From: Candidatus Methanoperedens sp.
GTDB taxonomy: Archaea; Halobacteriota; Methanosarcinia; Methanosarcinales; Methanoperedenaceae
Direction of reading: 5' to 3'
DNA: 58,672 nucleotides
Assembly (NCBI GenBank): GCA_012026835.1
Contig: VEPN01000018.1
Coordinates: forward strand, 1 to 58,672
The notes under the pieces: generated by a model
Databases searched by the model: none
The model's input: the letters and a program-made list of their open reading frames with translations, nothing else
What the model was told of the DNA's origin: nothing
Made by a program: the position numbers and the translations under genes
In this document: positions 13,997-47,318 of the stretch, piece after piece
Position numbering within the stretch: the stretch's first letter is position 1
Layout: every line of letters begins with the position of its first letter

Positions 13997-16900
13997 TCAC
14001 ATAAAATCCGCAAGCCCCTTCTGCTTCACCTTATCGCTCTCAAACAGCGACTTCATCTCAAGCTCCAGTAACTCAAGCCTCTGCTTCGTATAATGCCTTA
14101 CATTATACTCATCCGCGATCCTCAAACTCGTCTCAAGATACTTCTTCACCGACCCTTCATGCACAGTCAGCACGATATTCCCCCCGCACCTGGGGCACGT
14201 CCCGCGAAGCGGCGGGCGCCTGTACTTGGCATTGCATTTCGTGCATCTCACCTTCTGTTTTGAGAACGAGCGCAGGTTCCCAATCAGATCGGGCAGGAAA
14301 TGAGAATTTATTATCCTCTCGGCAACATCCTGTGGATCAACAGCCTTGATCTTTCGCGCCAGGGCAAGCTGTGCATCCATCTTCTCTATCATCGTCCCCA
14401 GGGTCTTGTATGCGCTGTTCTTTGGCCCTGCTGCGATATTTGCGGTATCATGTGTGAAGCCGAAGCCCTCATACTGCGCCGGAGTGCCAAGCCTCCCGCT
14501 CACAGTGTCCATGAGCTTCACGATGTCCTTCGGGTTCTTGAATTGCGTTGTGGCTTCGTAGAATTCAAGCGGATACTGGAAAAGTACGTCCACGTTATGC
14601 GCTTCCTTATCGACCTCGTTGGGATCGATGCGCGTGGTCAGGACGAGCGGTGCATCCATCTGGCCGCCGCGCTTGTCTGGAAGGTATGAGCGCGAGAAAT
14701 TTAGAAGGCCGTCCATCAGGAGCATCACGCAGTCCTCATCACCATCGCACTGGAAGGTGGTAATTCCCGAGCAAATTAGGCTGTGATGAGTATCCACCGT
14801 CAGATTATACACATACTTATCCTGAGAGCTTATCTCTTTTTTTTCTATAACTTTGTCAATGAACACATCTTCATCAAAACTGGTTCTTGAACTTCCTTTT
14901 TTGGCCAGCCATTTCTTAAGTAATTCTTCAGCACGCTTCTGCTTTTCACCCAGGAAGCCTATTTCTTTTATGAATTTTCCTGCTTCACTGCCATATATCC
15001 TGATTTTATACGAATGGAGCAACTTCGGCTTTCCATAAAATTTTAGAATGAGGTCGCTTTTTATCTTCCGTTCCTCCTCGTAAATAGAGTGCTTGATCCC
15101 TGAAAACATCAGAAGGAAGGAAACAGCGTCTATCAGCCATTTATTTACTGAAGTTACATTGACTTCCAGTGTGCTTTGAAGCGAACACGATCCGTCCCCG
15201 GCGAAATAACCTCTCAAAAATGCACTTATCTTATCCTTCGGCAGGGCATACACAAAGTCCGGAACCCTTTTTGTTTTTGCATCCTTCCCGATCTTCAGAT
15301 TTTCGAAAAGTTCTAAGACAAATCTTGAGCATATCGTTACGTGGTTTCCTGAAATATTGGGGGACAATCCAAAAACATCGTTTATTTTTTCTTTTAATAT
15401 GTCTCTTGCCCATTCTTTGGTAGCTGTTATAGATACCTGGTGACAATTTTTTTGATTCCTCTTGATAAATCCCTCAGCTAAATAAAATCCTAACAGTAAT
15501 AAGAAATCGTCATCCACAGTTATGCCGGGCTTTATAGAAACCTTATCTCTCTTGCTCCCCAGCATGTAATTTCCCGTATCGATTACATCGGGATTAAATC
15601 TATTGACGATCTCAAGCGGATATGACTTCCTGTAAATATAATTTGTAAATGTCTTATAACTCATTCCAAGACTGTTACTTATCTGCGAAAAAGGTATATC
15701 CTCATCAAAAACCTCGCTATCCGTCCTTATCATTATATCTTCAGTATCCGCAATCGAAAGCAGGTTTATATTCTCTTGATTTTTGACAGCAGGTCTTTTG
15801 AGATTCCAGGGGATCAATAATTCATTTGCATCCTGAGCCCTCACTTTTCCCCCGGTTCTATCCGGGAACATATGATCTTTAGTCACGACTATCTTTCTGC
15901 CGCTTTTCGTTCTTATTTCGATCAGCTTATCAGGGGCAATATGTTTTGAAACGTAGGTTATTTCAGCCAGTTCGAATCTTTTGGTTTGTAAGTTGAAAGC
16001 AAATGTCTTGAGACCGTGTATTTTCCGGTATTCGGTTCCAAAATCATCCTTTTCGTTTTTGCCCGCAAGATTGCCTTCAACAAGCTCGCGTATTGTTAAA
16101 AGCTCAAAACCATCTCCCCTGTAAACCAGTATTTTTTCGTCTCCATGGAAACAGTTCCTTCTCTTTGCCGCATGGAAAAAGGGATGCGCGTAGCCCACAG
16201 ATGCACTTGTGAACCCGACAAGGCGCCCGAGCACCCCCGCAGAAGTATGTGGCGCAAGCCCTATCACCAGTTTTCCGATAAGTCCGTCGATGTCCTGGAT
16301 ATTATAATAAGGTTCGACTTTGTAATATCTCGTAAGAAGATCATCAATGAACCGCGCGGTCTTAAGAAGATATTCACCGCAGTCTTTTGAGACCACTATA
16401 TCCTGGACTTTCAATTCAAGCACCTGGTTATCATCAACAAGTGGTTTCCCGTATGCGTCGTTCACATAGCCGAGTTCTTTCAGCTTCGAAACAGGAACAC
16501 CTATCTCTTTCGGCCTGATATGGGTAAGAGGGAGGTCTGAAAGGTCGTATCTCACCGTGCCGTCCTTGAACATAACAACATCGTGCTTTGCCCGCAGCGC
16601 CCCCTTCTCAAGCGGCTCAGGCGTCTTGTTCTTTGATGTCAGGCCAAGGACGCATTTTATTTCAAGTGTATCCCTCTCACCGACATTATTCAGGGCATTC
16701 AAACATTCTGATTTGAAATCTATATCCATCTCAGTGACCGATGTCGTCTCTTTTTTGCATTTCGGGCATACCGGCTTGTTTACTTCTATTCCGCATGATT
16801 CGCATCTGAGGAAAGGGTGGGTGAATTTGCCGCATGAGCATCTGTTCTTGAATGTCCTTATCTTGCATGACGGACAGATGCGCTGCCCTATCTGGACTTT

Positions 16901-18826
16901 TATCGTACCAACCTTTCCTTTCTGGACAGACAGCCCGGTTTTGAACTCATTGTTCCGCTCTCCGCCGTTATCGTCATCATCAACGTAGTCTTTCGCACTC
17001 TGCATCGACCTCCTGCGCCCCCCGGCCTCGCCAATCGGGAAAAGCACATGCGGCGCAGGTTTCATCTCGCGCTTGTCCGATTTCTCGGGCCGCCCCATCC
17101 TGCCCCCTATCCTGATAGGCGCGCGGTTTCGGACAGTTATATTTCCCACTTTCAATATAGTGTCAATGATATTTGAGCCAGGTAAAGTCCACGTCTTTTT
17201 CAGGTTGGTGTCAAGTCCGAGGCATCTTAATAAAGGCAGTGGTTCATCAATATGAATATTTTTTTCGCGGACGACATGCGGGATAAGAAGAGTCTCAAGG
17301 ATGGTTTTTACCTCATCATCAACCGGGAAAGACAACTCTTCGGCGTATTTACCGTAATTCTGGATATATTCGGCAAGCGCTGCGTAATCTTCAAGTTTGA
17401 TATCATGCCATAAATAGGTGTATTTAGGATGCAACGGTACTTTGCATGTGTCGGATATGGAAAGTGCGCTTTCCTGGTCCGGATTTCTCAAATCTCCGAG
17501 TTCTTTTGTGGAAGTTTTCGCTGCAAGTTCCTGTATCCACCACTCATAGCAATAAGATGAGGGGACAAGGGGATGGTTGTTCTCAAGAAAATCCCCGAAG
17601 TTTATCAATATCTCACCGATATCAAGGATTTTCTGGACTGCAGGTCTTATTTTGAGAGCTTCTTCTGCCGTGTCCACCCTCAAAACATCCCCGTTAAATA
17701 AACGCACTGTCGGCCCCTCGATCGTATCCACGGGTGCTATACCTGCGGCTTTTCCAGGCCGCTCGACCTTTATCTGTGTGCCTGCTGCAATAAAATCGTC
17801 CATCAATATCATAGTGGCCGGGCTGATACCTGCGGCGGCAAAGCTTGTGTTCCTGCCCCTGCCGTACCTGAGCCTGAACCCGCCGGGTCTTGAGGGATAT
17901 GAGAATACTGGCCGTCCCGCTATAAGGTCCTGCAGGTACTTGTCCTTTGGTTTTAACTGCGCCGAGGCATCGTCGGTTTTTACTGTAACCACAAATTTCT
18001 CAAGAAAATTCCAGCCTGCAAGCTTCAATTTATCCACATGCTTTTTCACTTTTGGCGCTTTCAGGGCAATTCCTTCTGCAATGACAAGCGCCATGCCGCC
18101 GCGTATCCTGTTCGTCTCGATGCGCGGGAGGTCTCTTCGGCCTTCTACTTCAGCTTCTTCCGTGGGCTCACCGTCTATGCAGATCGGGCAATTACTGACA
18201 ATAAGCCTTATTTCATCATCTGTGGGCAGGTACTGAAGATGGACATTCCTATGATACGCACCGATTTCTTCAACGTACCTTTCCACCTCTTCAGGCCGCG
18301 GAATGAAGCGGTTGATACCCAGGCTTCCCCTGATATAGTCAGCTGCAAGAACGGATAGCGCCTGTGCCGTGCCGCCTGCGCTGCGTATTGGTCCTGCGTA
18401 ATATATCCTTATGTATTCCGTGCCGTCGTCGTTCTTTGCAAGGTCTATTTTTGCTATGCCTTCTATGGGCGCTGCCACCACCCCTTCTGTGAGGACGGCC
18501 ATAGATATCCTGACAGCGGCTTCGATGGCATCCCTCTTTGATTCAAACTGTTTTATCTTACCACTTGCCACTTCAAAACCAAGCTGCAACGAAGCCTCCT
18601 CGCGTGACATGGTGGATTCAAGCTCCCGCAGCCGTTTTGCCACTCCCTCGACGCCGATGAGCTTCTCAACTCTGTCTGCAAGGTCCTTAGCTATCGGTAT
18701 TTCAGCGGACGAAACAGGGTCTGCGCCGTTAGCACGTGCGCGATTGGCAAGTTCGATGGCACGGGAAAGCCCGGATTCGAGGCTGTTGAAATAAGCCAGC
18801 ATTGCATCGCTTGCAGCGAATTTCAT
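13997..18826 (-). CDS. polC: DNA polymerase D large subunit DP2, with intein
   Basis: This 1609-codon gene encodes the catalytic subunit of the archaeal replicative polymerase PolD. Removing the 468-residue intein leaves 1141 residues, normal for DP2. A zinc-binding region ([16 protein letters not shown], then [16 protein letters not shown]) lies near residues 650-700. The catalytic CDGDED motif follows the intein directly. A second zinc motif ([16 protein letters not shown]) and a short C-terminal tail ([11 protein letters not shown], probably for PCNA binding) complete it. The small subunit DP1 is not in the window. The reading frame is intact throughout, which argues for good sequence quality here. 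Start is the ATG at 18826; a strong Shine-Dalgarno is not obvious. Confidence 0.95.
14750..16153 (-). other. DP2 intein with LAGLIDADG homing endonuclease and C-terminal Gln
   Basis: The intein covers residues 892-1359 of the DP2 precursor. It starts at Cys ([15 protein letters not shown]) after the extein AKRRN. It ends [16 protein letters not shown] just before the +1 Cys of CDGDED. Block B is VVTKDHMF (T-x-x-H). Two LAGLIDADG-type helices, [10 protein letters not shown] and [10 protein letters not shown], mark a homing endonuclease. The last residue is Gln rather than Asn, and the penultimate is Phe rather than His. A PolII intein of Pyrococcus abyssi with C-terminal Gln at the corresponding gene is known to splice, so activity is plausible. 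Insertion directly at the catalytic Asp motif means the polymerase is inactive until splicing occurs. Confidence 0.93.
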
Positions 18827-26432: not shown

Positions 26433-26702
26433 TCAGTATAAATTTATAACTAATCCTTTATTCTCTTCGAATCTTATCTCTATCGTTGATGAATTATCTA
26501 CCAGATATTTTTCTATATGCACAATGATTCCATCCTGCCTGTAAGTAGAATCCCCGGAAAGTGGTTTTTTTACAGGGGCAATTTCAAACCGCTTACAACA
26601 TCCGCCCCCGCTCACAAAAACACGCACAGATTCTGTATTCTCTCTTGCCAGAGTCTTTTTTATGAACGAGATAGCCTTATTATCTATAATAAGTTTGTTC
26701 AT
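26433..26702 (-). CDS. HesB/IscA-like protein
   Basis: This 89-residue protein looks like a divergent member of the A-type (IscA/HesB) fold: an N-terminal helix DNKAISFIKKTLA, the strand VRVFVSGGGCCKRFEIAPV near residue 26-44, and a C-terminal FEENKGLVINLY. Classical A-type carriers have a C-terminal Cys-Gly-Cys motif that is absent here. Only the Cys-Cys pair in GGGCC remains, so it may bind metal differently or not hold a [4Fe-4S] cluster. It is 71 bp upstream of ahbC on the same strand and could support its clusters. Confidence 0.6.
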   Translation of the reverse strand: MNKLIIDNKAISFIKKTLARENTESVRVFVSGGGCCKRFEIAPVKKPLSGDSTYRQDGIIVHIEKYLVDNSSTIEIRFEENKGLVINLY

Positions 26703-26714
26703 TATTGTTATTCC

Positions 26715-27396
26715 TCAAAATCCGTAACACATAGGGTTTTTTAATCCAGCCTCATCTGCAGGTGTTTTGCCAAGTCCCAGATGTGTTCTGACAAAATTGT
26801 AAACAATTCTTCCCAGTTCTGTAAAGGCACTTCCAGAATTTTTACTTTTGAAACCTCTCATAATATTACTTCTTTGTTTGAAGTCATCATCATGCCTCTC
26901 AATAGCGTTATTGTTATAATTTAGCCCATGCTTCTTACATGCGATTGGCACGCCAAAGAGGTCATCAATTTTCTTTCCTTGACTGGCTTCTTGTGAAAGT
27001 GGTGACAAGATTACACTTGGTTTTACTGTCGATTGAATTGATTGAGTAGTAACCTTTGCCTTTCACTTTTACATAAACCTCATCTGTGTGTACTCTACCC
27101 TTTACTTTTGGCTTCAGGTTACTTTCAAACTTTGAAATTAAATTTGCGTATTTTTTCACCCCTCTGATTTTACTGAGAGATAAACCATCCACATACAAAT
27201 GAAGGGTCTTTGCTATGATCTCCTTCGGATAGGTCATCCCCTCAAAACCATCATGCTCTATAAATGACTTCTTACATTTATTGCACCAGTATTGCTGCTT
27301 TTTGACGAATTTATTCTTGCGAGTTCCACGTTTTATGACATCTTTTTCTTCTTTACAGTACGGACAAATCATCTTCGACTCTACTAAATTATACAA
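26715..27396 (-). pseudogene. Decayed transposase (zinc-finger N-terminus, DDE core, frameshifted)
   Basis: Two overlapping frames belong to one broken transposase. The first (26965-27396) has a zinc finger CPYCKEEKDV then WCNKCKKSF, a helix-turn-helix YVDGLSLSKIRGV, and the start of the catalytic core GRVHTDEVYVKVKGKG (first Asp in TDE). The second (26715-27008) has FGVPIACKKHGLNYNNNAIERH (third acidic residue in IERH) and RTHLGLGKTPADEA near the C-terminus. They are in different frames. Together they make about 225 residues against about 320 for intact relatives, so segments before the core and around the second catalytic residue also appear to be lost. The element is dead. Confidence 0.8.
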
Positions 27397-27460
27397 ATAT
27401 ATTTTATAATATGTGCATGCTTATAAACGTTACTAATTCAAAGGAATATCCTGTTCAGGA

Positions 27461-27760
27461 TTAACTCATTCTGGACTGCTCCACACCGGAACCTTTGAGG
27501 CAGTAGCGGTCCCACCTGAGGGCCATAGCCTTCTGGACTGGACAGCCGGGACAGAGGCAACCTCTATCTATTTTAATTATTGTGCTTTTCCCGATCGCAC
27601 AGAACGTAAGTTTATTTTCTCCTGTTCCAACATATGTAGGGCAGTTCCTGCAAATGCAGATCTTGTTCAACTCCTTGATTTTGTCCTGTACCTGTTCAGG
27701 AGACATTTTGCTCATTGCTTCCATATTCTGTTCAAAAGTATTCTGTGCTTCTTTTGGCAT
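27461..27760 (-). CDS. DUF2769 cysteine-rich protein
   Basis: This 99-residue protein matches DUF2769, a small Cys-rich family common in Methanosarcinales. Cysteines lie in ICICRNCPTYVG, LTFCAIGKS, GCLCPGCPVQ and DRYCLKG, enough for one or two metal or Fe-S sites. There is no signal peptide or membrane helix, so it should be cytosolic. No function is established for the family. It is monocistronic as far as can be seen, with a decayed transposase downstream. Confidence 0.75.
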   Translation of the reverse strand: MPKEAQNTFEQNMEAMSKMSPEQVQDKIKELNKICICRNCPTYVGTGENKLTFCAIGKSTIIKIDRGCLCPGCPVQKAMALRWDRYCLKGSGVEQSRMS

Positions 27761-27873
27761 ATTTACCCCCTAAATCAACATATTAATTATTCCGGTTATG
27801 AGTATATAACGCTTTTCACAAAGGAATCTATCGGTGGTTACCAAGACCCTATAAAACCATTGGTAACTTTGTT

Positions 27874-28338
27874 TCACCCCCTTATGTCAAATAGGCTACT
27901 GAAGAAAGATTTTCTATAATGGTACACATCAAGCACCGCATCCGGGCATTCTTCGTATTTCTGGACGTAGGGATTCCTAAAATACATAGCAACAGGCTCG
28001 TGAATTCCCTTCTTTACAAGATATTGCATCATATCTTCCAGTGAAGCATCTTTTCTGAAATCAGGTTCATTCTCTATGACATTCCCATTCTGGTCGATAT
28101 TAAAACCAAGTTCTATAGCCTCATCAGAATGTGTATTAAGATGATTTTCAGTCCTTGTATAGTTTTTCGGTCCTTGTATAGTACTTGATGTTCTTGGTTT
28201 TCCTTCAGACCATAGTCTTAAACATAGCTCTTCTCGGATACTTCTCTTCACCTTCTTTGACAGAGTAAATTTTATACCAGTCAAGCCGATGAATCTATTC
28301 CAATAGCTTTTTACATGTTTATCTACATCAAACTCCAA
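27874..28338 (-). CDS. Hypothetical protein
   Basis: This 154-residue protein is not recognised. It is polar, without membrane segments, and rich in charged residues (KKVKRSIREELCLRLW near residue 28). A 13-bp direct repeat, gtccttgtatagt, occurs inside the gene at 28151-28163 and 28170-28182 and encodes a small internal duplication in different frames, which may mark slippage. The C-terminal 50 residues (YLVKKGIHEPVAMYFRNPY) look folded. The ATG lies within an AT-rich stretch. It may be a genuine accessory gene or part of a remnant. Confidence 0.5.
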   Translation of the reverse strand: MEFDVDKHVKSYWNRFIGLTGIKFTLSKKVKRSIREELCLRLWSEGKPRTSSTIQGPKNYTRTENHLNTHSDEAIELGFNIDQNGNVIENEPDFRKDASLEDMMQYLVKKGIHEPVAMYFRNPYVQKYEECPDAVLDVYHYRKSFFSSLFDIRG

Positions 28339-28583
28339 TGTTCATTCCCCCGTTTGTTTTTTTGCTAAAATAAGAATGGGGGAACGAATACTAAAGCTGT
28401 TGACTTATTTTCATATATTGTAACCGTTACACGGGCATACTGCAAGCATAAAATTAACATTAGGAGTGCTCCTATTACGATTTGATTTTCATTTGCAGAA
28501 ACATTCATAAGATAATCTGGAGCTTTTAGAATAGTAAGTGAGACACTCGGTTACATCAAGATTGGATATAAAGTTGTGATGTT

Positions 28584-29063
28584 ATGACGGTACTTGACAC
28601 AAATTTCTTAATTGATCTTCTCAGGAACAAAGCAGGTATTTCAGAAGCAGCGGATTCCCTGAAAGATCCAAAAACTACTGCCATAAATGCCTTTGAACTT
28701 TATTATGGAGCCAGGCGTTCTGCAAAACCGGAAAAAGCCGTTCTGGAGGTCAGCAATTTATTGAATTCCATTGATGTACTTGAATTCGATCATTCTGCCG
28801 CGCAAAAAGCAGGGGATATTCATGCAAACCTCATGAATTCAGGAAATCCTATTGATATTATGGATGTCCTCATAGCAGGGATTGTTTTGGCAAATAAAGA
28901 AGAGCTTATGACCAGGGATATCGAGCATTTCGACCGCATAAAGGGTCTCAGATGCAGGACACGGCAGGGTAACTTTGATACGTATCGGGCATCTTTAATC
29001 TCCATATATAGATGGCAGGCATGCCGGGATTTCCCTCTGTCGATGGGAGTCGTGCAAATTTAA
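28584..29063 (+). CDS. PIN-domain toxin (VapC-type) with unusual C-terminal tail
   Basis: The first about 125 residues are a complete VapC PIN domain: MTVLDTNFLIDLL (Asp 5), NAFELYYGARRS (Glu 38), IDIMDVLIAGIVL (Asp near 98) and LMTRDIEHFDRIKG (Asp near 116). Relatives normally end within about ten residues of FDRIKG. Here the frame runs on for about 37 residues (from RCRTRQGNFDT) with no similarity to the family, consistent with a frameshift near the end that leaves the catalytic part intact. The ATG overlaps an upstream TGA (ATGA), which suggests a former antitoxin gene. Only 23 open codons precede it, so the antitoxin is missing or decayed. Confidence 0.72.
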   Translation: MTVLDTNFLIDLLRNKAGISEAADSLKDPKTTAINAFELYYGARRSAKPEKAVLEVSNLLNSIDVLEFDHSAAQKAGDIHANLMNSGNPIDIMDVLIAGIVLANKEELMTRDIEHFDRIKGLRCRTRQGNFDTYRASLISIYRWQACRDFPLSMGVVQI

Positions 29064-29440
29064 TCCGTAACTCAGCATATTTTACGTAATATCCAAATAA
29101 AATGTTTATTTAAAATAACTTATATTTATATTAAAGTATTTTTAGACGCTTTTTGTATATTTTAACACCGCAAAGAGCGCAAAGTTCGCAAAGAACAATT
29201 ATTATAACCTTTGCGCTCTTTGCGTACTTTGCGGTGAGTTATTTGAATATGAGTTACTCGTGTTTATTTACGTAATATGATATTTTTGTGCTTTCGAACT
29301 GCTGCGATAGAATATATCCACATATTACCTAAATTAGGCGGAGTTAAGGTTTAATATCCGAGGATGCACGCTTCTTCTGAGAGTCACCGACTCCCAAATG
29401 AATTCGAAGACATCTACGGGGTGAAGGGATTATCTGTTGT
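29064..29440. other. Intergenic region, 377 bp
   Basis: No convincing gene. It contains the hairpin repeat at 29166-29236, AT-rich flanks with acgtaatat at both 29081-29089 and 29270-29278, and a short stem (gagagtc / gactccc, 29379-29395) between the VapC gene and the convergent hypothetical gene. Confidence 0.6.
29166..29236. repeat. Hairpin repeat of the 'cgcaaag' type
   Basis: The left arm (29166-29193, caccgcaaag then repeated cgcaaag) pairs with the right arm (29208-29236, ending ctttgcggtg) around an AT-rich loop. The arms are themselves built from three cgcaaag units each with only a few mismatches. This type of CGCAAAG repeat is widespread in intergenic regions of Methanosarcinales and some bacteria. 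It may form a strong RNA or DNA stem; no gene is present. Confidence 0.8.
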
Positions 29441-30382
29441 CTATGTCATATCTAATGCCTTGGATAAAGCATCCTTCGATATATAGCAATCATTGATTAT
29501 AAAGTTAACACGATCCATTTCTTTTATAACTCCAACTTTGACACCTTTTTCTTGTTCAACAGTTTCTTTTGAAAGGATAATAAATTCTTTACACAAGTCA
29601 TTTGAAAACTCTTTCTTTTGAACAGGAATTAATTCGCAGAGTGTAGATAAAGTGTTGATGACAAAGTATGGAACAAACTCTAATATTTTGGAGGCAGTAT
29701 TCATTACAGGGATGGATTTACGAAACTCTAAATCAAATATCAGTACCTTTCCTTCTTCTATTCCTGATATTGTCATACAACATTCTTGCATTGTCAATAA
29801 ACTGCCATAATGGGCTACATAGCTCCTGGTCGGAGATTTCCCCATTAGAACTTCACTTTCAAAAAGCCACTTGCTATCTTTTAGCAGTCCGATTATTTTT
29901 TCATTGGATTCACTCTTTTTGGAATTTTCAAGCGCGTTTTTAAGCTTTGAAAAGAAATTTACTTGATGACCTGGTAATCTCTTGGTAATTAAAAATGTAA
30001 GGGCGTCCAAACATGCCCTTGCCTGTAATATAAGTGCTTCGAATTCGAAAACAAGCTCCTTCTCCAAATAACAAATAGTTAATCCTCGGACATCTTTATT
30101 TTTCAATTGCTCTTTTAGTCCAGTTAGTAAATTTTCTTTGATGTTTTTTATGTTACGAAGATGATATAACACCCCCTGTAATTTATATAAACAGCTATCT
30201 ATTAAAATAAATGCAGTTCGTGATTCGGCGCTGATGTTAGTCTCAGTTGATGCATTTGCGACAATCTTTCCAATTTCATCAATTTTAAAAACAGGTGCCT
30301 CACTTAACATTCCATAATCAAACCTTCTGTCTGCTATTGCCACAAAGTTATAATTTTTTCCTTGTTCATTCACTGTGGACAT
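29441..30382 (-). CDS. Hypothetical protein, possible HEPN-like fold
   Basis: This 313-residue cytosolic protein is not recognised. It is mainly helical in its middle, with FEFEALILQARACLDALTFLITKRL near residue 115 and KSPTRSYVAHYGSLLTMQ near 185. The R-S-Y-V-A-H spacing loosely resembles the R-x4-H active-site signature of HEPN nucleases, but this is weak. The C-terminus (EKGVKVGVIKEMDRVNFIINDCYISKDA) looks like a separate small domain. It is monocistronic and AT-rich, and lies next to a lone PIN toxin and a repeat, so it may be accessory. Its start at 30382 is supported only by the frame. Confidence 0.5.
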   Translation of the reverse strand: MSTVNEQGKNYNFVAIADRRFDYGMLSEAPVFKIDEIGKIVANASTETNISAESRTAFILIDSCLYKLQGVLYHLRNIKNIKENLLTGLKEQLKNKDVRGLTICYLEKELVFEFEALILQARACLDALTFLITKRLPGHQVNFFSKLKNALENSKKSESNEKIIGLLKDSKWLFESEVLMGKSPTRSYVAHYGSLLTMQECCMTISGIEEGKVLIFDLEFRKSIPVMNTASKILEFVPYFVINTLSTLCELIPVQKKEFSNDLCKEFIILSKETVEQEKGVKVGVIKEMDRVNFIINDCYISKDALSKALDMT

Positions 30383-30604
30383 TCAATAATCTTCCTTCAT
30401 TATGAAATAATTTTATTATTTTTCTCAATTATATTCAAATGTATCCTGCTCAGAAATATACTTTTTGACGACATCCCACATATCCACCGAAACAAGTCAG
30501 TGCCAAGAAATGATCTTATCATCTTTCCCATCTGTGATGGTAAAAAACAAGTGGCCAGTAAAGACTATATGGTGAAAGTAAAAATACAAGATAAAAGTCA
30601 CCTC

Positions 30605-30669: not shown

Positions 30670-31899
30670 TTATCTCAGCTTCTTGATCCTCTCAAATAAC
30701 TGCTTCATCGTATCTTCATTGCTCTGCGTGAACTCAAAAGGCGATTTCGTGAATGGCTGGAAATACACAGGCACATCATCCAGCCTGTAGAACGTGCCGT
30801 CGCATTCCATGGCATCGATAACGCCGGACAATACCACATCAGAAGCCAGCGTTGTCGGGCACGGGGCGATGTCAATGCATGCCATGGGTATTTTCTTCAG
30901 GTATTCGGCGCATGTTGCAGGGAAATGAGAAACAAGGTCAGCAGACATTACAAATCGCGCAAAATCAATCCCGAAAGGATAGCCGTAGAGATAGGAAGCA
31001 ATCTGGTTAAAACCTGCGACATTGCAGTGACCGCGAAGCGCACCAATCACGAACTTGGTGTGGTTGTTGAGTTCCTTTACGAGGTTGAACGCAAGCTCGG
31101 CATTCCTGTGCTTCCCGTATGAAGATGCGATACCCAGGCCCACATAGATCGCCCCGAAATTTGTGCTTTTCATCATCCCAAGCATTTCTTCCATAGTAGA
31201 GATGGGAACGCCGGTTATTTCCTCAACCGAGGAATGGGGCTTCTTCCCATGAAGGAGTGTCAGGAGAGCGGACAGCAGTTCATAATCAGTGTTAGGCCGA
31301 AGCTGTACATGCAGGTCGGAAGCATCAGCCGTGATACTTCTTCTCGGGTCAACAGTAATTATCGTCCTGTCAAACCTCCCGCGCTTTGTCCAGTATCCCC
31401 GCGGGAAAACGCTGTACCGTGACATGTGCCTGGGCATGGATTCAAGCGGGTTGGTTCCCCAGTAAATCGCAAGGCTGCCCCTCTGCTTTGGCTGGCCTGC
31501 TGTGGATCCTACTCTTCCTGCTTCCTGTATGCCCATGGCAGTCGGACCGTGGCATTCGGTGGCGTTGGAATCCACCACTGCACCCAGATACTCGGCAATA
31601 TGCAGACCCACCTCCATTGCTTCGCAGGAGGTCTCACTACCCATGAAAAGAAGAGGACGCTTTGCGTTTACCAGGATCTCGGCAGCTCTGTCCAGCGCTT
31701 CATTCCATTGCGCTTTCCTGAATGTTCCATTATCTTTAATCTGCGGCTCTTTTATCCTGTGGTGGCTCACAAGCTCATGGAATTTGGCGTTTCCCATCTT
31801 ACACGCATTCTTAACATTGATGCTTTCACCATCGTAATCCACCTGTATGTCATCACATGATGCCCCGCACACAGGGCAGATTATATTCTTGCTGACCAT
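30670..31899 (-). CDS. fmdB: Formylmethanofuran dehydrogenase subunit B, internally shortened
   Basis: FmdB carries the Mo/W-bis(pyranopterin) active site and a [4Fe-4S] cluster that interconvert formate-level CO2 and formyl groups on the (reverse) methanogenesis pathway. The cluster motif IICPVCGASCDD is at the N-terminus. The metal ligand is the Cys in NATECHGPTAMG near residue 118, so it is a Cys rather than a Sec enzyme. The protein has 409 residues; relatives have about 430-435. After YGYPFGIDFAR it goes straight to FVMSADLV. The usual intervening segment of about 24 residues, which carries a GYPxxxPGEY-like motif, is absent although the frame is kept. It is last in the operon, 1 bp from fmdD. 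The loss may inactivate it. Confidence 0.88.
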   Translation of the reverse strand: MVSKNIICPVCGASCDDIQVDYDGESINVKNACKMGNAKFHELVSHHRIKEPQIKDNGTFRKAQWNEALDRAAEILVNAKRPLLFMGSETSCEAMEVGLHIAEYLGAVVDSNATECHGPTAMGIQEAGRVGSTAGQPKQRGSLAIYWGTNPLESMPRHMSRYSVFPRGYWTKRGRFDRTIITVDPRRSITADASDLHVQLRPNTDYELLSALLTLLHGKKPHSSVEEITGVPISTMEEMLGMMKSTNFGAIYVGLGIASSYGKHRNAELAFNLVKELNNHTKFVIGALRGHCNVAGFNQIASYLYGYPFGIDFARFVMSADLVSHFPATCAEYLKKIPMACIDIAPCPTTLASDVVLSGVIDAMECDGTFYRLDDVPVYFQPFTKSPFEFTQSNEDTMKQLFERIKKLR

Positions 31900-31900
31900 A

Positions 31901-32296
31901 TTATCTCCTCCCTGCGTAAACTCTCAATACTATGTCTTCTGCGCTCTTCACTTCTTCATCCGTTGCTTCTATGAACACCGGACTTCCCTTGTAGAGTGGA
32001 GACCCTGTGGAGAAAGTCTCAGGTTCCACAACCACGTTCGGCCATATCGATCTTGGCATGAATATCTGTTCCTCTGTCACCGAATCCTCACACTTTGCAG
32101 TAACAACGACTTCGCGCGTTCCATCATTTGAAATTATTTTCACACACTTCGGGCTACCCAGTTCTTTAAATATCCTGGGATGGATCACCGCCACCGCGCA
32201 CTCCTTCTGGTATCCAGGCGAAAGTTTGTCACCACCCTTGGCGAACTTCCCCTCGTTTATCGTGCTTCCTGAGTTCAATAATACCCTGATCCTCAT
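31901..32296 (-). CDS. fmdD: Formylmethanofuran dehydrogenase subunit D
   Basis: This 131-residue subunit corresponds to the C-terminal beta-barrel (molydopterin-binding) domain of Mo/W oxidoreductases, which in this enzyme is a separate protein that closes over the pterin cofactor held by FmdB. Visible are the N-terminal LNSGSTINEGKFAKGGDKLSPGY and the central IKISNDGTREVVVTAK-like strand (here VKIISNDGTREVVV). Length is normal and the frame intact. It lies between fmdC (3 bp gap) and fmdB (1 bp gap) in the usual order. Confidence 0.9.
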   Translation of the reverse strand: MRIRVLLNSGSTINEGKFAKGGDKLSPGYQKECAVAVIHPRIFKELGSPKCVKIISNDGTREVVVTAKCEDSVTEEQIFMPRSIWPNVVVEPETFSTGSPLYKGSPVFIEATDEEVKSAEDIVLRVYAGRR

Positions 32297-32299
32297 TCT

Positions 32300-32993
32300 T
32301 CACACCCCCTCATTGGCTGATGCATACAAAATTCCTTTATGTGCCTTGCTTATCGCATAGTCACCGGTGAATTTCATGAATTCTCCTGATATTACCGTTT
32401 CACCGGCTTTCGGGTTCTTTTCAGTGCCTGCATACTCAAAGCCTGGCGATAATTGCCTGATCTTCCCGCCTACGACAAATAATCCGCCTGACATTTGCGC
32501 GCCCACCCCGCGGATCGCATCGCCTTTTACCACAATAAGACCGCTATTCATTCTTATCCCTGCGAAATTCTCAACGCTGCCGCCAACATGGATCTCACCG
32601 CCACTCATTCCGCCTCCGAGCTGGCTCCTGGCGTTACCGTCTATCAGTATCTTCCCTCCATTCATTCCGCGCCAGCTTCCCCTGTAGGCACATCCAACAT
32701 GGTCGCCGGCATTCCCGGTTATGTGCAGAGTCCCGCCTTTCATCTCCATTCCGGCCCATGAGCCTGCATTACCTTTCACGAGGATGCTTCCTCCTATCAT
32801 TTCAGAGCCTGCATGCATACCTGCTGAGCCTCTTATCACTATCTCTCCGGCAGACATTCCGTGCCCGATGTGTTTCACCCTGGGCACATCGCCTTCGATA
32901 ATGATCTTCGTATCTGCGGCCGTACTGGCTGAATTCCCTTCAACATCAAAGAATTCAGAAGCTGCCTTTTGGCCTTAGTATTACTTCGCCCAT
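32300..32993 (-). pseudogene. fmdC: Formylmethanofuran dehydrogenase subunit C, frameshifted near the start
   Basis: FmdC forms a beta-helix of GXGXG-type repeats that joins subunits. The repeats are complete from MPRVKHIGHGMSAGEIVI (32887) on, for example GSAGMHAGSEMIGGSILVKG. The proper ATG lies at 32991-32993, 5 bp after the fmdA stop, and begins MGEVILRPK. That frame hits a TGA after 12 codons. Skipping one A in the run of four at 32967-32970 (minus strand) restores ...AASEFFDVEGNSAS and continues into the repeats. So one extra base separates the first nine codons from the rest. Internal starts could still give the 195-residue core. This may be a true lesion, a sequencing error or, less likely, programmed frameshifting. 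Confidence 0.85.
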
Positions 32994-32998
32994 CACAT

Positions 32999-34771
32999 TC
33001 ACCTCCCAACGATCGCTTCAAGGGGTTTGTTTACCTGGATCGGCGCTGGATTGCGAATATACTTATCAGGCACGGGGTAATTCGCAAAGCCAAGGGTGTA
33101 GTACTTGAACCACTGTTTAACGTCTTTTAACATTTCTTCCTCGATCCCATCATCCACATGCGGTTCGGTAAAGTATGTCCTGCCATATGGTACTGACATT
33201 ATCTCCCCGTTCAGTGCTACTACCCCACCATCCTTGATTGTATAGGCGGCGTTCTGGAATCCTCGTATGATCTTCGTGTAGTCATTTACATCAAATTTCG
33301 TCGGATCGAAGTCGTATATCGTAACATCCCCATCCGCTCCTGCTCCGAGATGACCTTTCCTGTGAGCTATTCCCACTGTCTTTGCAGGATTCGCCCTCGT
33401 GAGAATCGCTATCTCATACAATGTCATCTCGCGCTCGATGCCCCCGAGGCTGCTCCTGTCCCGCGCCCACTTGTGGCATTCAGCAAGAGTGGCTTCTCTT
33501 GCTTTCTTTGACATTATCCATGCGATCAACTGGGGGTATTTGGTAAATGGACCTCCGTTAGGATGATCGGTGGTCAGGATAGTCTTCCAGGGATCATTCA
33601 CAAGCAGCAAAAGTTCAAGCCCGATAGCCCATTCCACGCTGTGTACCGGGTTTGCTTTCAGGTAATTGAATGTGAGTATACCAGAACCGCACTCAAGCTC
33701 AATGTCCTTATTAGACCACTTGTTGCCCGTGAGCTTATAGAGATTATGTATCGCAGACCCATCTCCGGTCATTACTGTTGCAGGCCCGAAAGGAACGGCG
33801 CCGTTATCTATCACGACATGATCGGATTTATTCACATAATCTACAATACCTTTTGCCCCGGAGGCAAAATCCATCCATGAGGTGCCGCCGAACGCGTTGA
33901 ACTGGGCATGCGCAAGATATACGCTTTGTTTTCTCTGCGGATCGCTCTTTGTCTTTTGCCATTCTACATCCATATTGCATTCGACCTTAACATCACGTGT
34001 CACGTCTAGAGAATCCCTTGTGATTTCCCAGCATCCCGGATGCCCCAGATTATTGGCATGAAGGTGCAGTGACATGGGCATTCCCAGCATTTCGTTCACT
34101 TCTGCAAGGCCGTGAATAACTTCCCTTGAAGTTATCCCGAAGTGGATGTTCGGCTCATCAAGAGAACTCACGTTCTTTCCCCATCCCCAGTTCTCAACCC
34201 CGGCGGGATTGACGCATTTTATGCCGTAGGCTTTATGCGTCCTCATCATCCAGGCGACATATGCCGCAGCTTTCTCAATATTCCCTTCTTTCAGGTAGCG
34301 CATTATGAACCAGTTATTGCCAAGCACCAGGTATCCGCCCATATCAAGGATCGGTGTGTTGCGCATCTCTTCATGGGTATGCCGTGCTTCCATCGGGGGT
34401 ATTGCAGCCTCAAAGACCGTAGTATATCCCATTTTTGCATAATCATAGCCCTGGACATACACCGAAGGCACGGTATTCCCGCTGCCGCTGTGGGTGAGAT
34501 CTCATTTCTTTGTCACCCATTTATAGCGGTCCTCAGGACACATCATCCTTCCTGTGTTTACCTTTGCGCCTGCAACATGGGAGTGCGAGTCAACACCCCC
34601 AAGCATCACGGTCTTACCTTTCGCATCAATTATCTTTGCATCCCGGAGATTTGCGCCCGTGAGGTCTTCCACGATCTTTCCATCTTTGATAAAAATATCC
34701 TTTATTTCCCCGTCAATTTCATTCAATGGATCGAAAACATATCCATTTCTTATAACCATTGTACCAAGCAT
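32999..34771 (-). pseudogene. fmdA: Formylmethanofuran dehydrogenase subunit A, interrupted by an in-frame TGA
   Basis: FmdA is the amidohydrolase-type subunit that handles the formyl group (formate plus methanofuran). Residues 1-89 include the metal-binding GGVDSHSHVAG (His 63, His 65). At codon 90 the frame has TGA (34502-34504) and then continues in the same frame with DLTHSGSGNTVPSVYVQGYDY to the normal end at 32999, about 590 codons in all. Later key residues such as the Asp in ILTTDHPNGGPF are present. The stop falls at a position that varies in the family, so a CGA-to-TGA or similar single change would explain it. No SECIS-like element was recognised. The ATG overlaps the fmdF stop by one base. 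Confidence 0.9.
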
Positions 34772-35800
34772 TATGCCACCTCCCTTTTCTCAAGCCGTAT
34801 CGCATCAGTTGGACATATCAGGCTGCATGTAGCACACGAGCCGCATACTTCCTGATTTACCACATTCACTTTGCCGTTTTCAACCTCAAGCAGGGGTTTT
34901 TCATCGAGTTCATTGAGATGTCCTGCTGCAAGATAAGGATCTGACAACGAATTGACAGGGCAGGCGATAACGCAATTGCCGCAGCCAAGGCACGCCTCTT
35001 CGTCTGTGACAAGTATTGAGGTCAGAACAGGTCTTGGAGTCGGCTCTGCGGTGAGCTTTTTCTCAAATACCTGCTTTTTCTTCATGTCGGGCAGGATAGC
35101 GGTCTTCCTGACTGTTATCGCCCCTACCGGACAGGCTACAGAGCATGCGCCGCAGTATATGCAGGCATCCTTCCTGTGTGTCACTTTCTCAACCCTCTCG
35201 CCAGCTTTCCACTCCTTATTAAAAAGAGCATCGCATGGACATGTCTGAACGCATGTACGGCATGCCTGGCAAACATTCTCATCTCTTTGAAAATTCCCCG
35301 GAAAAGGGTTTCTCCATTGTTATTGCCTCAACAGGGCATATTGAGGCGCACCACCCGCAGTGCACGCAGCATTTCAGATCGATTGTGGTTTTGCCATCCA
35401 TGCTGAGGCTTCCATCCTGAGCAAGCTTTCGTTTCTGCACATCTATACACTCCTGCGGGCACACTTCTTCGCACATCCCGCAGCGAACGCATTTTTTATC
35501 AACCACTGTGGGTTTTAAGGCACCTTAGAGATAAGAGTCATCCATCTCCACTTTGCCAGCTTTTCGCACTTCCAGCGCGCCTGTCGGGCAAACTTTCGCG
35601 CACATACTGCATATCGTGCATCCCCCGGTCCCTTTCTGGAGAAAGTCCTTGTTGATCAATCCCCGCGCTACGGCTCCCACCGAGCCTATGACTATTTTCT
35701 CTTTTGGGCATATCATTGTACATGTTGCGCATCCTATACACTTTTCCGGAATATACACAAGAGTCTTATCTTCCTTTGTCTGGAACACTACCTCTTTCAT
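34771..35800 (-). pseudogene. fmdF: Polyferredoxin subunit FmdF, with in-frame TAA and a frameshift
   Basis: Intact FmdF/FwdF is a chain of [4Fe-4S] domains of about 350 residues that carries electrons to and from the dehydrogenase. Here the 1030 bp hold its whole length in three pieces. Piece 1 (35525-35800) starts MKEVVFQTKEDKTLVYIPEKCIGC and ends at TAA (35525-35527). The same frame continues as GALKPTVVDKKCVRCGMCEE, as in a continuous protein. Piece 2 ends at TGA 35279-35281. Skipping one T in the run of four at 35290-35293 (minus strand) restores RDENVCQACRTCVQTCPC and joins piece 3, which ends at 34771. At least eight Cys-x2-Cys-x2-Cys clusters are visible. Separate short ferredoxins could still be made. 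Confidence 0.85.
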
Positions 35801-35803
35801 ATA

Positions 35804-36394
35804 TTACTCCTTTAATACTCCAATATTTTCCATACATTCCTGGCACAAAGGCCCATCGTTTTTCCGGACAAAGCTCTCACCGCAGTTATCGCACAGAGCA
35901 ATGCGTTTTTCCGGTTTTTCCTGTAATTCGATGTCAATGATTTTGTACTTGTACAAGCTCTCCCCGGCATCTATCAAAATAGAAACAGCTTCCTTATGAG
36001 TGATATTCCCTGTTTTCATGTACCAATCATGAAGTCTTGGATATTGTGCAGTCTTTGCAGGATCAAGCACTATCCTGACGCTTCTGATGAGCGTCTGGCC
36101 ATCCGGCGCCCTCTTGTTGACAAGGACTGCCATCTTGCCATAATCCCTGATCTTCAATTTCTTGTTACCGATGGTGCATCCGGCAAGTATCTGGAACGGG
36201 TCGGGAAGGCAGTTATACGTTTCACATGTGACATACAATTGCTCCCCGCTGTCAGCATTCAGCACCCTTTTTGCAATATTGAGCATCTGGATGCCGATAA
36301 AGGCGCCCGTGCTGAGATATCCGTGGAATGAACTCACACGTTCTATCTGGAAAAGGAGATAGGGATCGTTAATCTTTTTCAGGACATCATTCAT
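35804..36394 (-). CDS. fmdE: FmdE-like protein with altered metal-site motif
   Basis: This 196-residue protein is first in the fmdEFACDB order. It has the FmdE domain (SFHGYLSTGAFIGIQML, then TCETYNCLPDPFQILAGCTIGN) and a C-terminal zinc ribbon CDNCGESFV...CQEC. Intact relatives read FHGHLC at the first motif, where His and Cys bind metal. Here it is FHGYLS, so both are replaced while the later Cys residues remain. The start at ATG 36392-36394 is preferred because of GGAAGGGC just upstream. The frame itself opens further upstream at a TTG. The stop is 3 bp from fmdF. The role of FmdE in the complex is not well known. Confidence 0.8.
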   Translation of the reverse strand: MNDVLKKINDPYLLFQIERVSSFHGYLSTGAFIGIQMLNIAKRVLNADSGEQLYVTCETYNCLPDPFQILAGCTIGNKKLKIRDYGKMAVLVNKRAPDGQTLIRSVRIVLDPAKTAQYPRLHDWYMKTGNITHKEAVSILIDAGESLYKYKIIDIELQEKPEKRIALCDNCGESFVRKNDGPLCQECMENIGVLKE

Positions 36395-36504
36395 GCAATT
36401 AGCCCTTCCATCAGGTTCTTTGAACGGGTTACCATAAGTTGCACGAATGCAGACATTGCGAGCAGCGTGATCCAATCGAGTCGCCTCAGGTGATATATTT
36501 TCAT
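36391..36504 (-). CDS. 37-residue frame coupled between tupA and fmdE
   Basis: An ATG at 36502-36504 overlaps the tupA stop as ATGA. The 37-codon frame ends with a TGA that overlaps the fmdE ATG, again as ATGA. The peptide (MKIYHLRRLDWITLLAMSAF, then VQLMVTRSKNLMEGLIA) has one hydrophobic stretch. It could be a leader-like coupling frame, the remnant of a deleted gene such as a permease, or chance. It is not in the usual fmd gene order. Confidence 0.3.
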   Translation of the reverse strand: MKIYHLRRLDWITLLAMSAFVQLMVTRSKNLMEGLIA

Positions 36505-37385
36505 GGGCTGGTTACGTTGCCCGCATCTTCCTCAGGCACGAAAAGAGCTTCTCGGTATTTGTCCTTTCCATAATTCCTTAAAATATCCTGCCCTTCCGGG
36601 GATGTCACATAGTTGATATATTTTTTTGCAAGGTCGTATTTCACGGTCGGGAATTTCACAGGACTAACGGCCATGACATGATAAGGATTGAAAAGGTACT
36701 TCTGGTCTTTCTCGAAAAGGATTGCCAGTTTTATTTTATCCTTCATGGCAAGATACGTTCCCCTGTCTGACAGGGTATAACCTTCCTTGATATCCGCTGT
36801 TGAGATTGTATCCCCCATGCCTTTGCCTATAGATTGATACCAGTTTCCTGAAGGCGTGATGTTGGCCGCTTTCCATATCGATAATTCCATCTTGTGGGTT
36901 CCCGAATCGTCGCCCCTTGAGACAAAAGGAGCCTGCTTTGCCGCGATTCTCCTGAAGGCATCCGAAGCATTGGTGGCATTCTTTATCCCTGCGGGGTCGT
37001 TCTCAGGCCCGATGATAACGAAATAGTTATACATCATGTAAGTGCGGTTGATGAAACTGCCGTTGGCCACGGCTTTTAATTCAGACTGGACCGCGTGCAC
37101 CATCACAACGTCAGCGGCCCCGAGTTCTCCTGTGGCAATGGCCTTGCCCGTGCCTTCACATAGCGTTGATATTTTTACATTATTTTCATCTTCGAATTTT
37201 TTGTTAAGGACATCGAGCAATCCGGTATCGCATGTGGAAGTTGTCGTAGCCAGATGCAATTCCCGGGGTGCAGAAACGGCCGGGGCCGGAGTTGTCGTAT
37301 TTTCGGGCGTTGCCTGCTGGGTGCAGCCAGCAAATAATGTGAGCAAAACTGAAACTATTATTATCTTTGCAAACAGGTTTTTCAT
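36501..37385 (-). CDS. tupA: Tungstate-binding lipoprotein TupA
   Basis: This 294-residue substrate-binding protein belongs to the TupA/WtpA-like branch of ABC transporters for tungstate. The signal peptide ends in the lipobox LFAGC (Cys 21), followed by a Thr/Pro/Ala-rich linker. The anion-binding start LHLATTTSTCDTGLLDVLN near residue 45 is characteristic of TupA, as are SRGDDSGTHKMELSIW and FPTVKYDLAKKYINYV later. The protein captures tungstate outside the cell. No permease or ATPase gene is beside it. It lies directly upstream of the fmd operon, whose enzyme needs Mo or W, so co-regulation is likely. Confidence 0.88.
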   Translation of the reverse strand: MKNLFAKIIIVSVLLTLFAGCTQQATPENTTTPAPAVSAPRELHLATTTSTCDTGLLDVLNKKFEDENNVKISTLCEGTGKAIATGELGAADVVMVHAVQSELKAVANGSFINRTYMMYNYFVIIGPENDPAGIKNATNASDAFRRIAAKQAPFVSRGDDSGTHKMELSIWKAANITPSGNWYQSIGKGMGDTISTADIKEGYTLSDRGTYLAMKDKIKLAILFEKDQKYLFNPYHVMAVSPVKFPTVKYDLAKKYINYVTSPEGQDILRNYGKDKYREALFVPEEDAGNVTSP

Positions 37386-45115: not shown

Positions 45116-46396
45116 ATGGAAATTGAATTTGCGCCTCACATAGAAGAAATAAAAAGGGCGCTTGATAACGAAATAGATGATGAACGCATCAGGACGGATC
45201 TGGTAAAACTGCTTGAATACAGGGTACCGCTTGCCGAAGCAAAAAGGAGCCTGATAAGGAAATATGGCGGAGTGGAGAAAAGTTCGGTAAAGAAACTCCT
45301 GGATATCCAGATAGGAGACCGCAATATTGAAGTAACGGGGCTGGTATTGGATATCATCAAAAAAACGATTACAGTAAAAAACAATGAGAAGACTGTTTTT
45401 TCAGGTATTATCCGTGACGAGACATCTGCAAGAAGTTTTACTGCATGGGAAGATTTCGGTTTAAATATCGGTGATACTATCAGGGTCACACAGGCGTATG
45501 TAAGGAACTGGCAGGAACGTCCGGAAGTAAACTTTGGGGGCAGGTCCAAAGTTGAAAAACTCCCAACCCAAATAGTGATCAAAGAGGAGGCACAGCAGAA
45601 GAAACTGTCTGAATTAAGGGACGGTGAGATAAATATCCATTCTGCATTCACTGTTTTGAAGCTTGAATCCAGAGAAATCAGCACAAAAGACGGCAGCAAG
45701 GAAATCCTTACAGGCATCGGCGCTGATGAGGCTACAAAAATCCCATTTACCTCGTGGATATTATTCCCTGAACTGGCTATCGGGAATACGATCGAAGTGA
45801 AGAACGCATACGTAAGATCTTTCCGTGGTGTTCCCACTTTGCACATGAATGAAAAGAGCCTTGTGAAAAAGCTTGACAGGATAATCCAGTATAAAGAACC
45901 CCCTAAAGTTATGATTGGCGACATTGTAGAGAAGGAAGGGGCATTTGATGTGGTGATCGAGGGAAATATTCTTTCAATAAGACCGGGCTCCGGGCTGATA
46001 GCCCGCTGTCCGCAATGCAACCGGGTGATACAGAAAAGCGTGTGCCGGGTTCATGGCAAGATGAATGAAAAAATAGACATGCGGATAAAAGCGATAATCG
46101 ACGATGGGACAGGCGCACTCACGCTCGTACTTGATGCCGGGTTAACACAGGAAATATGCGGCTTCACGATCGAAGATGCAACACTGATAGCAAGGACAGC
46201 AATGTCCCAGGGCGCGGTTGAAGAGGAGATTAAGAAAAAACTTCTTGGGAAAATGCTGGGTGCTCGGGGCAATATGTCAAAAGGCGAATTCGGGATTACA
46301 CTTGTTGCAAGTAAAGTATGGGAATCGCCTGATATAACTAATAAAAAATCAAAAGAATTGCTTGAGAGGGCGGGATACAATGGAAAAGATCGCTGA
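45116..46396 (+). CDS. rpa: Replication protein A (ssDNA-binding, OB folds plus zinc finger)
   Basis: This 426-residue protein binds single-stranded DNA in replication and repair. Three OB folds are visible: residues about 75-155 (IEVTGLVLDIIKKTITVKN...), about 170-255 (INIHSAFTVLKLESREIS...) and about 270-380, which contains the zinc finger CPQCNRVIQKSVCRVH. The start is set by a Shine-Dalgarno AAGGAGG at 45105-45111, five bases before the ATG. It is first of four tightly packed genes. The next gene overlaps it by 17 bp and encodes its usual partner. Confidence 0.93.
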   Translation: MEIEFAPHIEEIKRALDNEIDDERIRTDLVKLLEYRVPLAEAKRSLIRKYGGVEKSSVKKLLDIQIGDRNIEVTGLVLDIIKKTITVKNNEKTVFSGIIRDETSARSFTAWEDFGLNIGDTIRVTQAYVRNWQERPEVNFGGRSKVEKLPTQIVIKEEAQQKKLSELRDGEINIHSAFTVLKLESREISTKDGSKEILTGIGADEATKIPFTSWILFPELAIGNTIEVKNAYVRSFRGVPTLHMNEKSLVKKLDRIIQYKEPPKVMIGDIVEKEGAFDVVIEGNILSIRPGSGLIARCPQCNRVIQKSVCRVHGKMNEKIDMRIKAIIDDGTGALTLVLDAGLTQEICGFTIEDATLIARTAMSQGAVEEEIKKKLLGKMLGARGNMSKGEFGITLVASKVWESPDITNKKSKELLERAGYNGKDR

Positions 46397-47318
46397 CAGG
46401 GAAGTTGCATGGCGGGTTTTCGCCCACGAGTTCAACAGGTCGAATCTCTATATCAGTGAAGGGAGCGAACGGGCACCGAATTATATAGTAACACCTACGG
46501 GCGTGAAATGCAACCGCCTCTTTATCATGGGTGTGGTCACAGAGGTAGAAAATATCAGTCACGATAATAACCTGTGGAAAGCACGCATCGCCGATCCCAC
46601 AGGCGTATTCACGCTGTATGCGGGCCAGTACCAGCCTGAGGCCGCAATCTTTTTATCAGGGTTGAAAGTGCCTTCATATGTGGCCGTAGTTGGTAAAGCC
46701 AGAAAATATGAGCCTGAAGAAGGAAGCGTTTATGTATCTATCAGGCCAGAGGAAATAAATGTTACCGATGAAATGCAGAGAGACAGATGGGTACTTGACA
46801 CGGCTGAACGCACGCTGGAACGTATCGAGATAATTGAAGATGCCTTAAGCTCCGGCGTGTCCGGGAATGATCTGAAGGATTTTTTGCGGAAAAAAAATAT
46901 AAATTCAGTTCTTGCAGACGGGGCGGTTCTTGCCGTCGCACATTACAGGAACATGGATAAGATTCTTGATGAACTTAAAGGCGCGATAATCCACGCAGTG
47001 CGAACAATATCATCCGAAATCAGAACACCTGCTGGAATCCATGAGCCCCAAAGAGATGAACAAAATATTGAAGAGAAGAAAACCCCGGTGGTATTAAAAC
47101 CTGAGCCTGAGGAGAAAGAAATTGAAACAGAGCCAAAAGAGATGCTTGCAGCTATAATCGATAGACTGGACACCGGCAAGGGTACGTCGTATGCTGCAAT
47201 ACTTGAAGCAGCACTATCCGCAGGTGTCGATGGTGAATCTGTTGAATCTGGTATCAAAGAACTTATGGCAGAAGGCAGGTGTTATGAACCTAAAATCGGG
47301 GTGCTGCGGAAAGTTTGA
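46380..47318 (+). CDS. RPA-associated protein (COG3390 family)
   Basis: This 312-residue protein is the archaeal RPA-associated OB-fold protein that is encoded next to the RPA gene. The N-terminal MEKIADREVAWRVFAHEFN and the OB-fold part (RLFIMGVVTEVENISHDN, then WKARIADPTGVFTLYAGQYQ) are typical. The C-terminal region has a coiled or linker segment and a winged-helix-like end (ISAGVDGESVESGIKELMAEGRCYEPKIGVLRKV). I chose the ATG at 46380 rather than the earlier start because it gives the family N-terminus. The two proteins likely bind each other. Confidence 0.85.
   Translation: MEKIADREVAWRVFAHEFNRSNLYISEGSERAPNYIVTPTGVKCNRLFIMGVVTEVENISHDNNLWKARIADPTGVFTLYAGQYQPEAAIFLSGLKVPSYVAVVGKARKYEPEEGSVYVSIRPEEINVTDEMQRDRWVLDTAERTLERIEIIEDALSSGVSGNDLKDFLRKKNINSVLADGAVLAVAHYRNMDKILDELKGAIIHAVRTISSEIRTPAGIHEPQRDEQNIEEKKTPVVLKPEPEEKEIETEPKEMLAAIIDRLDTGKGTSYAAILEAALSAGVDGESVESGIKELMAEGRCYEPKIGVLRKV

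Follow-up and report, generated by a model that had tools for sequence, protein, structure and literature searches.

An in-frame TGA in fwdA of Candidatus Methanoperedens and the probable recent inactivation of a formylmethanofuran dehydrogenase operon

Introduction

The gene coding for subunit A of formylmethanofuran dehydrogenase (fwdA, also named fmdA) is interrupted by an in-frame TGA at codon 90 in a stretch of 58,672 nucleotides from Candidatus Methanoperedens sp. (the window, which is contig C29 of the genome). The question raised by this locus is whether the TGA codon reflects the decay of the gene, an unusual decoding of UGA or a faulty sequence. The explanation considered best, with a probability of about 0.85, is that codon 90 was hit by a nonsense mutation and that the redundant formylmethanofuran dehydrogenase operon to which fwdA belongs (tupA-fmdE-fwdF-fwdA-fwdC-fwdD-fwdB) would have been inactivated recently. 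This operon is probably of the tungsten type. No report on pseudogenised fwd genes in Methanoperedens has been found in the literature searched.

Results and discussion

The TGA codon of fwdA

The fwdA gene is located on the minus strand, a point not included in the sequence-only reading that first described the TGA, from position 34771 to 32999. Its translation consists of 590 codons and a terminal TGA (codon 591), and the only internal stop is codon 90 (34504-34502, minus strand), found in the context KWVTKK*DLTHSG. The 89 codons that precede this stop and the 500 that follow it are in the same frame, in agreement with the earlier description. With the TGA read as X, the protein matched TIGR03121 (subunit A of the enzyme) with 834 bits (cut-off 393) across residues 5-575. 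This FwdA is homologous to the tungsten formylmethanofuran dehydrogenase structures (PDB 5t5i, 9sw6), to which it was aligned over residues 6-579, with the difference that the reading frame of the window is interrupted; codon 90 falls in a part of this alignment where conservation is low.

A stop at this position, or elsewhere in the matched part, was absent from the 13 congeneric genomes with an orthologue covering the codon (85-94% protein identity). When codon 90 was read directly in 11 relatives, TCA (Ser) was found in the two nearest ones (L033 and L064), and the other nine have Thr (seven) or Gly (two). Since the nearest relatives have TCA, the TGA can be derived from it by a single C-to-G transversion, and the position is a variable one. 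The single base change previously proposed is thus supported, although the original codons suggested at that time, CGA or TGG, were not seen at codon 90 in the relatives. The TGA is thus a true, single feature of the sequence, and the C-to-G change would have turned a serine codon of fwdA into a stop. Those relatives that carry a name and share 86-94% FwdA identity are either MAGs of Candidatus Methanoperedens or uncultured archaea, and have the same operon, so that the window would belong to that genus or very near it. The closest known system is the TupA-linked operon of Candidatus Methanoperedens, such as that of CABMIH010000077.1 (L033), which has the same gene order and a FwdA 94% identical; however, that operon is intact and the one in the window carries five lesions.

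In another genome (G028), a partial fwdA (L140, G028:C332, 1-214) that stops short of codon 90 contains an in-frame TAA some 65 codons upstream of its end. This TAA is located less than 20 bases from the contig end, and fwdC, fwdD and fwdB of that genome are without stop.

Other lesions in the operon

When the operon was aligned with six congeners, four of its five subunit genes were found to be damaged, by five lesions in all. Two are nonsense codons, the third is a +1 frameshift, and the remaining two are deletions, one that shifts the frame and one that is in frame. The five lesions can be read directly in the nucleotide sequence, were absent from every aligned relative, and were called in the one genome of the species that is available. 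The four lesions other than the TGA were not part of the sequence-only reading, whose description of an otherwise clean frame is valid for fmdA but not for the operon, where fwdF, fwdC and fwdB are also damaged.

The fwdF-type polyferredoxin gene (34771..35800, minus strand), which in the relatives is one frame of 342 codons, carries a TAA at codon 92 (35525..35527, minus), where the relatives have TAT or TAC (Tyr), and one extra A (35286..35288, minus) that produces a +1 frameshift in comparison with all six aligned relatives. The fwdF gene is broken by these two changes. The fwdC gene (32300..32993, minus) is broken in its 5' part by a frameshifting deletion of 110 nt, also relative to all six, with its junction at 32960..32961 (minus); as a result, the ATG at 32993 is followed by 12 codons to a stop, and the match to TIGR03122 begins only at profile position 68.

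The fwdD gene (31901..32296, minus) is intact, 96% identical to that of L033 over 131 aa, and shows a weak match to the FwdD profile. The fwdB gene (30670..31899, minus) remains open and retains the Cys of the TECHGPTA motif, and is shortened by 24 codons through a 72-nt in-frame deletion (junction 30955..30956, minus) with respect to the six aligned congeners. An intact fwdD and an in-frame deletion in fwdB could suggest that the operon has been partially remodelled and is kept for a reduced product with a new use, such as FwdD, a shortened FwdB or a FwdA restarted at an internal GTG. However, restarting FwdA at 34471 would remove the first 100 residues, including a conserved HSH motif that aligns with the FwdA structures, and one deletion in three is in frame by chance, so that remodelling is considered highly improbable.

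Upstream of fwdF, two genes without lesions are found. The fmdE-like gene (35804..36475, minus; 82% identical over 223 aa) has no NCBIfam match and owes its name to its position and its Cys-rich C-terminus. The gene for a tupA-like tungstate-binding protein (36501..37385, minus) is intact in comparison with L033, and its match to NF041772 (183 bits, against 400) is below the cut-off. A separate fwdG was not identified in the operon. To the left of the operon, the region 26700-30600 of the window showed scattered short matches in the closest relative (G011), with 79-96% identity, and the neighbours of the operon differ between relatives; this region is possibly a rearranged or repeat-rich junction.

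Possible recoding of UGA

A frame that is open on either side of the TGA, with codons under purifying selection, is what recoding or programmed readthrough at codon 90, by selenocysteine or by a UGA-reading tRNA, would also produce, and the sequence-only reading had mentioned this alternative as the less likely one. Some methanogens have a selenium-dependent formylmethanofuran dehydrogenase that can contain selenocysteine, which is located in subunit B (FwuB) and not in subunit A (PMC2933860). The window is similar to the archaeal selenoproteins (FwuB of Methanopyrus and others, PMC2933860) in that a UGA occurs within a gene for this enzyme complex, and it differs from them in the subunit affected, in the selenocysteine machinery, which was not found, and in the relatives, which have Ser, Thr or Gly at the site. 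UGA was present in none of the relatives checked, and neither were Cys or Trp.

The search for tRNA-Sec (RF01852) yielded nothing over the gathering score in this genome, rated 99.8% complete, and the five sub-threshold cross-hits corresponded to ordinary Ser, Leu and Arg tRNAs. SepSecS (TIGR03531) was detected in the control genome of Methanocaldococcus jannaschii and had no match in the genome under study. With neither tRNA-Sec above the cut-off nor SepSecS, and with relatives that lack UGA or Cys at codon 90, the insertion of selenocysteine at this codon was rejected. A UGA-decoding tRNA, whose search had been recommended, was not found either, because none of the 43 tRNA-model matches, four of them read by eye on account of their introns (Lys-TTT, CAT, Glu-TTC and Arg-CCT), has a UCA anticodon; the list is incomplete, since tRNA-Trp and a few others, probably with long introns, are not among the 43. 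A UGA suppressor tRNA was rejected within this set of matches.

UGA is the stop codon of 11 of the 22 intact genes that flank the operon, as expected when it keeps its ordinary meaning and not of a code in which it has been reassigned. In addition, fwdF and fwdC are frameshifted, and therefore decoding the UGA would leave the operon broken. Recoding or readthrough is consequently regarded as extremely improbable, and scarcely any probability is assigned to a combined situation in which UGA at codon 90 is decoded by an uncharacterised mechanism of Methanoperedens and the other lesions of the operon are assembly errors. The TGA in fwdA is most likely ordinary gene decay and not the sign of an unusual genetic code, so that what looked like a lead towards stop-codon recoding proves to be a false one.

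Flanking genes as control

As a control, both sides of the operon were compared with the syntenic parts of G011, the closest relative. The 23 genes flanking the operon (about 8,500 codons) showed neither premature stops nor frameshifts when compared with their orthologues. According to our own arithmetic, with lesions placed uniformly, the chance that all five fall within the 1,759 codons of the subunit genes is about 1.5e-4. Random sequencing error was rejected in view of these error-free syntenic flanks. The clustering of the lesions in the operon, next to clean flanks, points to a biological cause or a local assembly problem, and not to a generally poor sequence.

A local assembly or consensus artefact, in which the operon would be intact in the organism and the lesions would result from assembling this part of the MAG at low coverage or from mixed strains, agrees with the fragmentation of the genome (3.32 Mb in 116 contigs) and with the +1 lesion of fwdF, which lengthens a run of A. 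On the contrary, the damage is limited to the fwd subunit genes, with the adjoining tupA and fmdE as clean as the 23 flanking genes, and two of the lesions are clean deletions of 110 and 72 nt, untypical of base-calling errors. The artefact is thus considered unlikely, although it retains some weight.

Two further observations concern other parts of the window. A gene coding for 318 aa (46362-47318 of the window) is a single frame here and two ORFs in G011 (L132 9152-10114). An ORF of 1609 aa at 13997-18826 looks like the large subunit of DNA polymerase D with an inserted intein-like domain.

Paralogues and distribution in the genus

The inactivation of a redundant operon, the preferred explanation, was considered in relation to the remaining fwd genes of the genome. 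On contig C31, a further fwdA without interruption (47% identical) is clustered with intact fwdC, fwdB and fwdD, and additional fwdB-like genes are present on contigs C27 and C64. The enzyme would most likely be made from the intact paralogous cluster on C31 together with the other copies of fwdB. From the gene content and the lesions we infer that the operon in the window is probably non-functional and replaced by these paralogues. Among the 21 congeners with a completeness of 95% or more, 11 lack an orthologue of its fwdA, and the operon is therefore dispensable in the genus. The locus appears to record an early moment in the loss of a formylmethanofuran dehydrogenase isoenzyme operon of patchy distribution, and could help to account for the set of Methanoperedens lineages that retain a second copy of the enzyme for the final step of methane oxidation.

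Selection and timing of the probable inactivation

A two-ratio codon model with a fixed tree and the branch of the window as foreground was applied to the five fwd genes. Omega was 0.066 on this branch (rough 95% interval 0.05-0.09, from the profile) and 0.086 elsewhere, a difference in the conserving direction (p = 0.06), so that this model did not indicate any relaxation of selection on the fwd subunit genes in this lineage. The undiminished purifying selection up to the present is also what would be expected of an intact gene with sequence errors, and in this respect it favours the assembly artefact discussed above. A long-standing pseudogene was rejected by this low omega, which is compatible with a recent one. 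For the preferred reading of gene inactivation, the lack of relaxation means that the event must be recent, within the last few percent of the branch.

Neutral change along the branch amounts to about 0.3 substitutions per site, or 0.9 per codon. By our own estimate, a few percent of this would allow a few tens of such substitutions, which is roughly enough for two nonsense mutations and three indels, and this interval is somewhat tight for five lesions. For the tupA-like gene (36501-37385), omega was mildly raised on this branch, 0.17 versus 0.09 (p = 0.04, uncorrected), a weak signal that would fit a lowered need for tungstate uptake.
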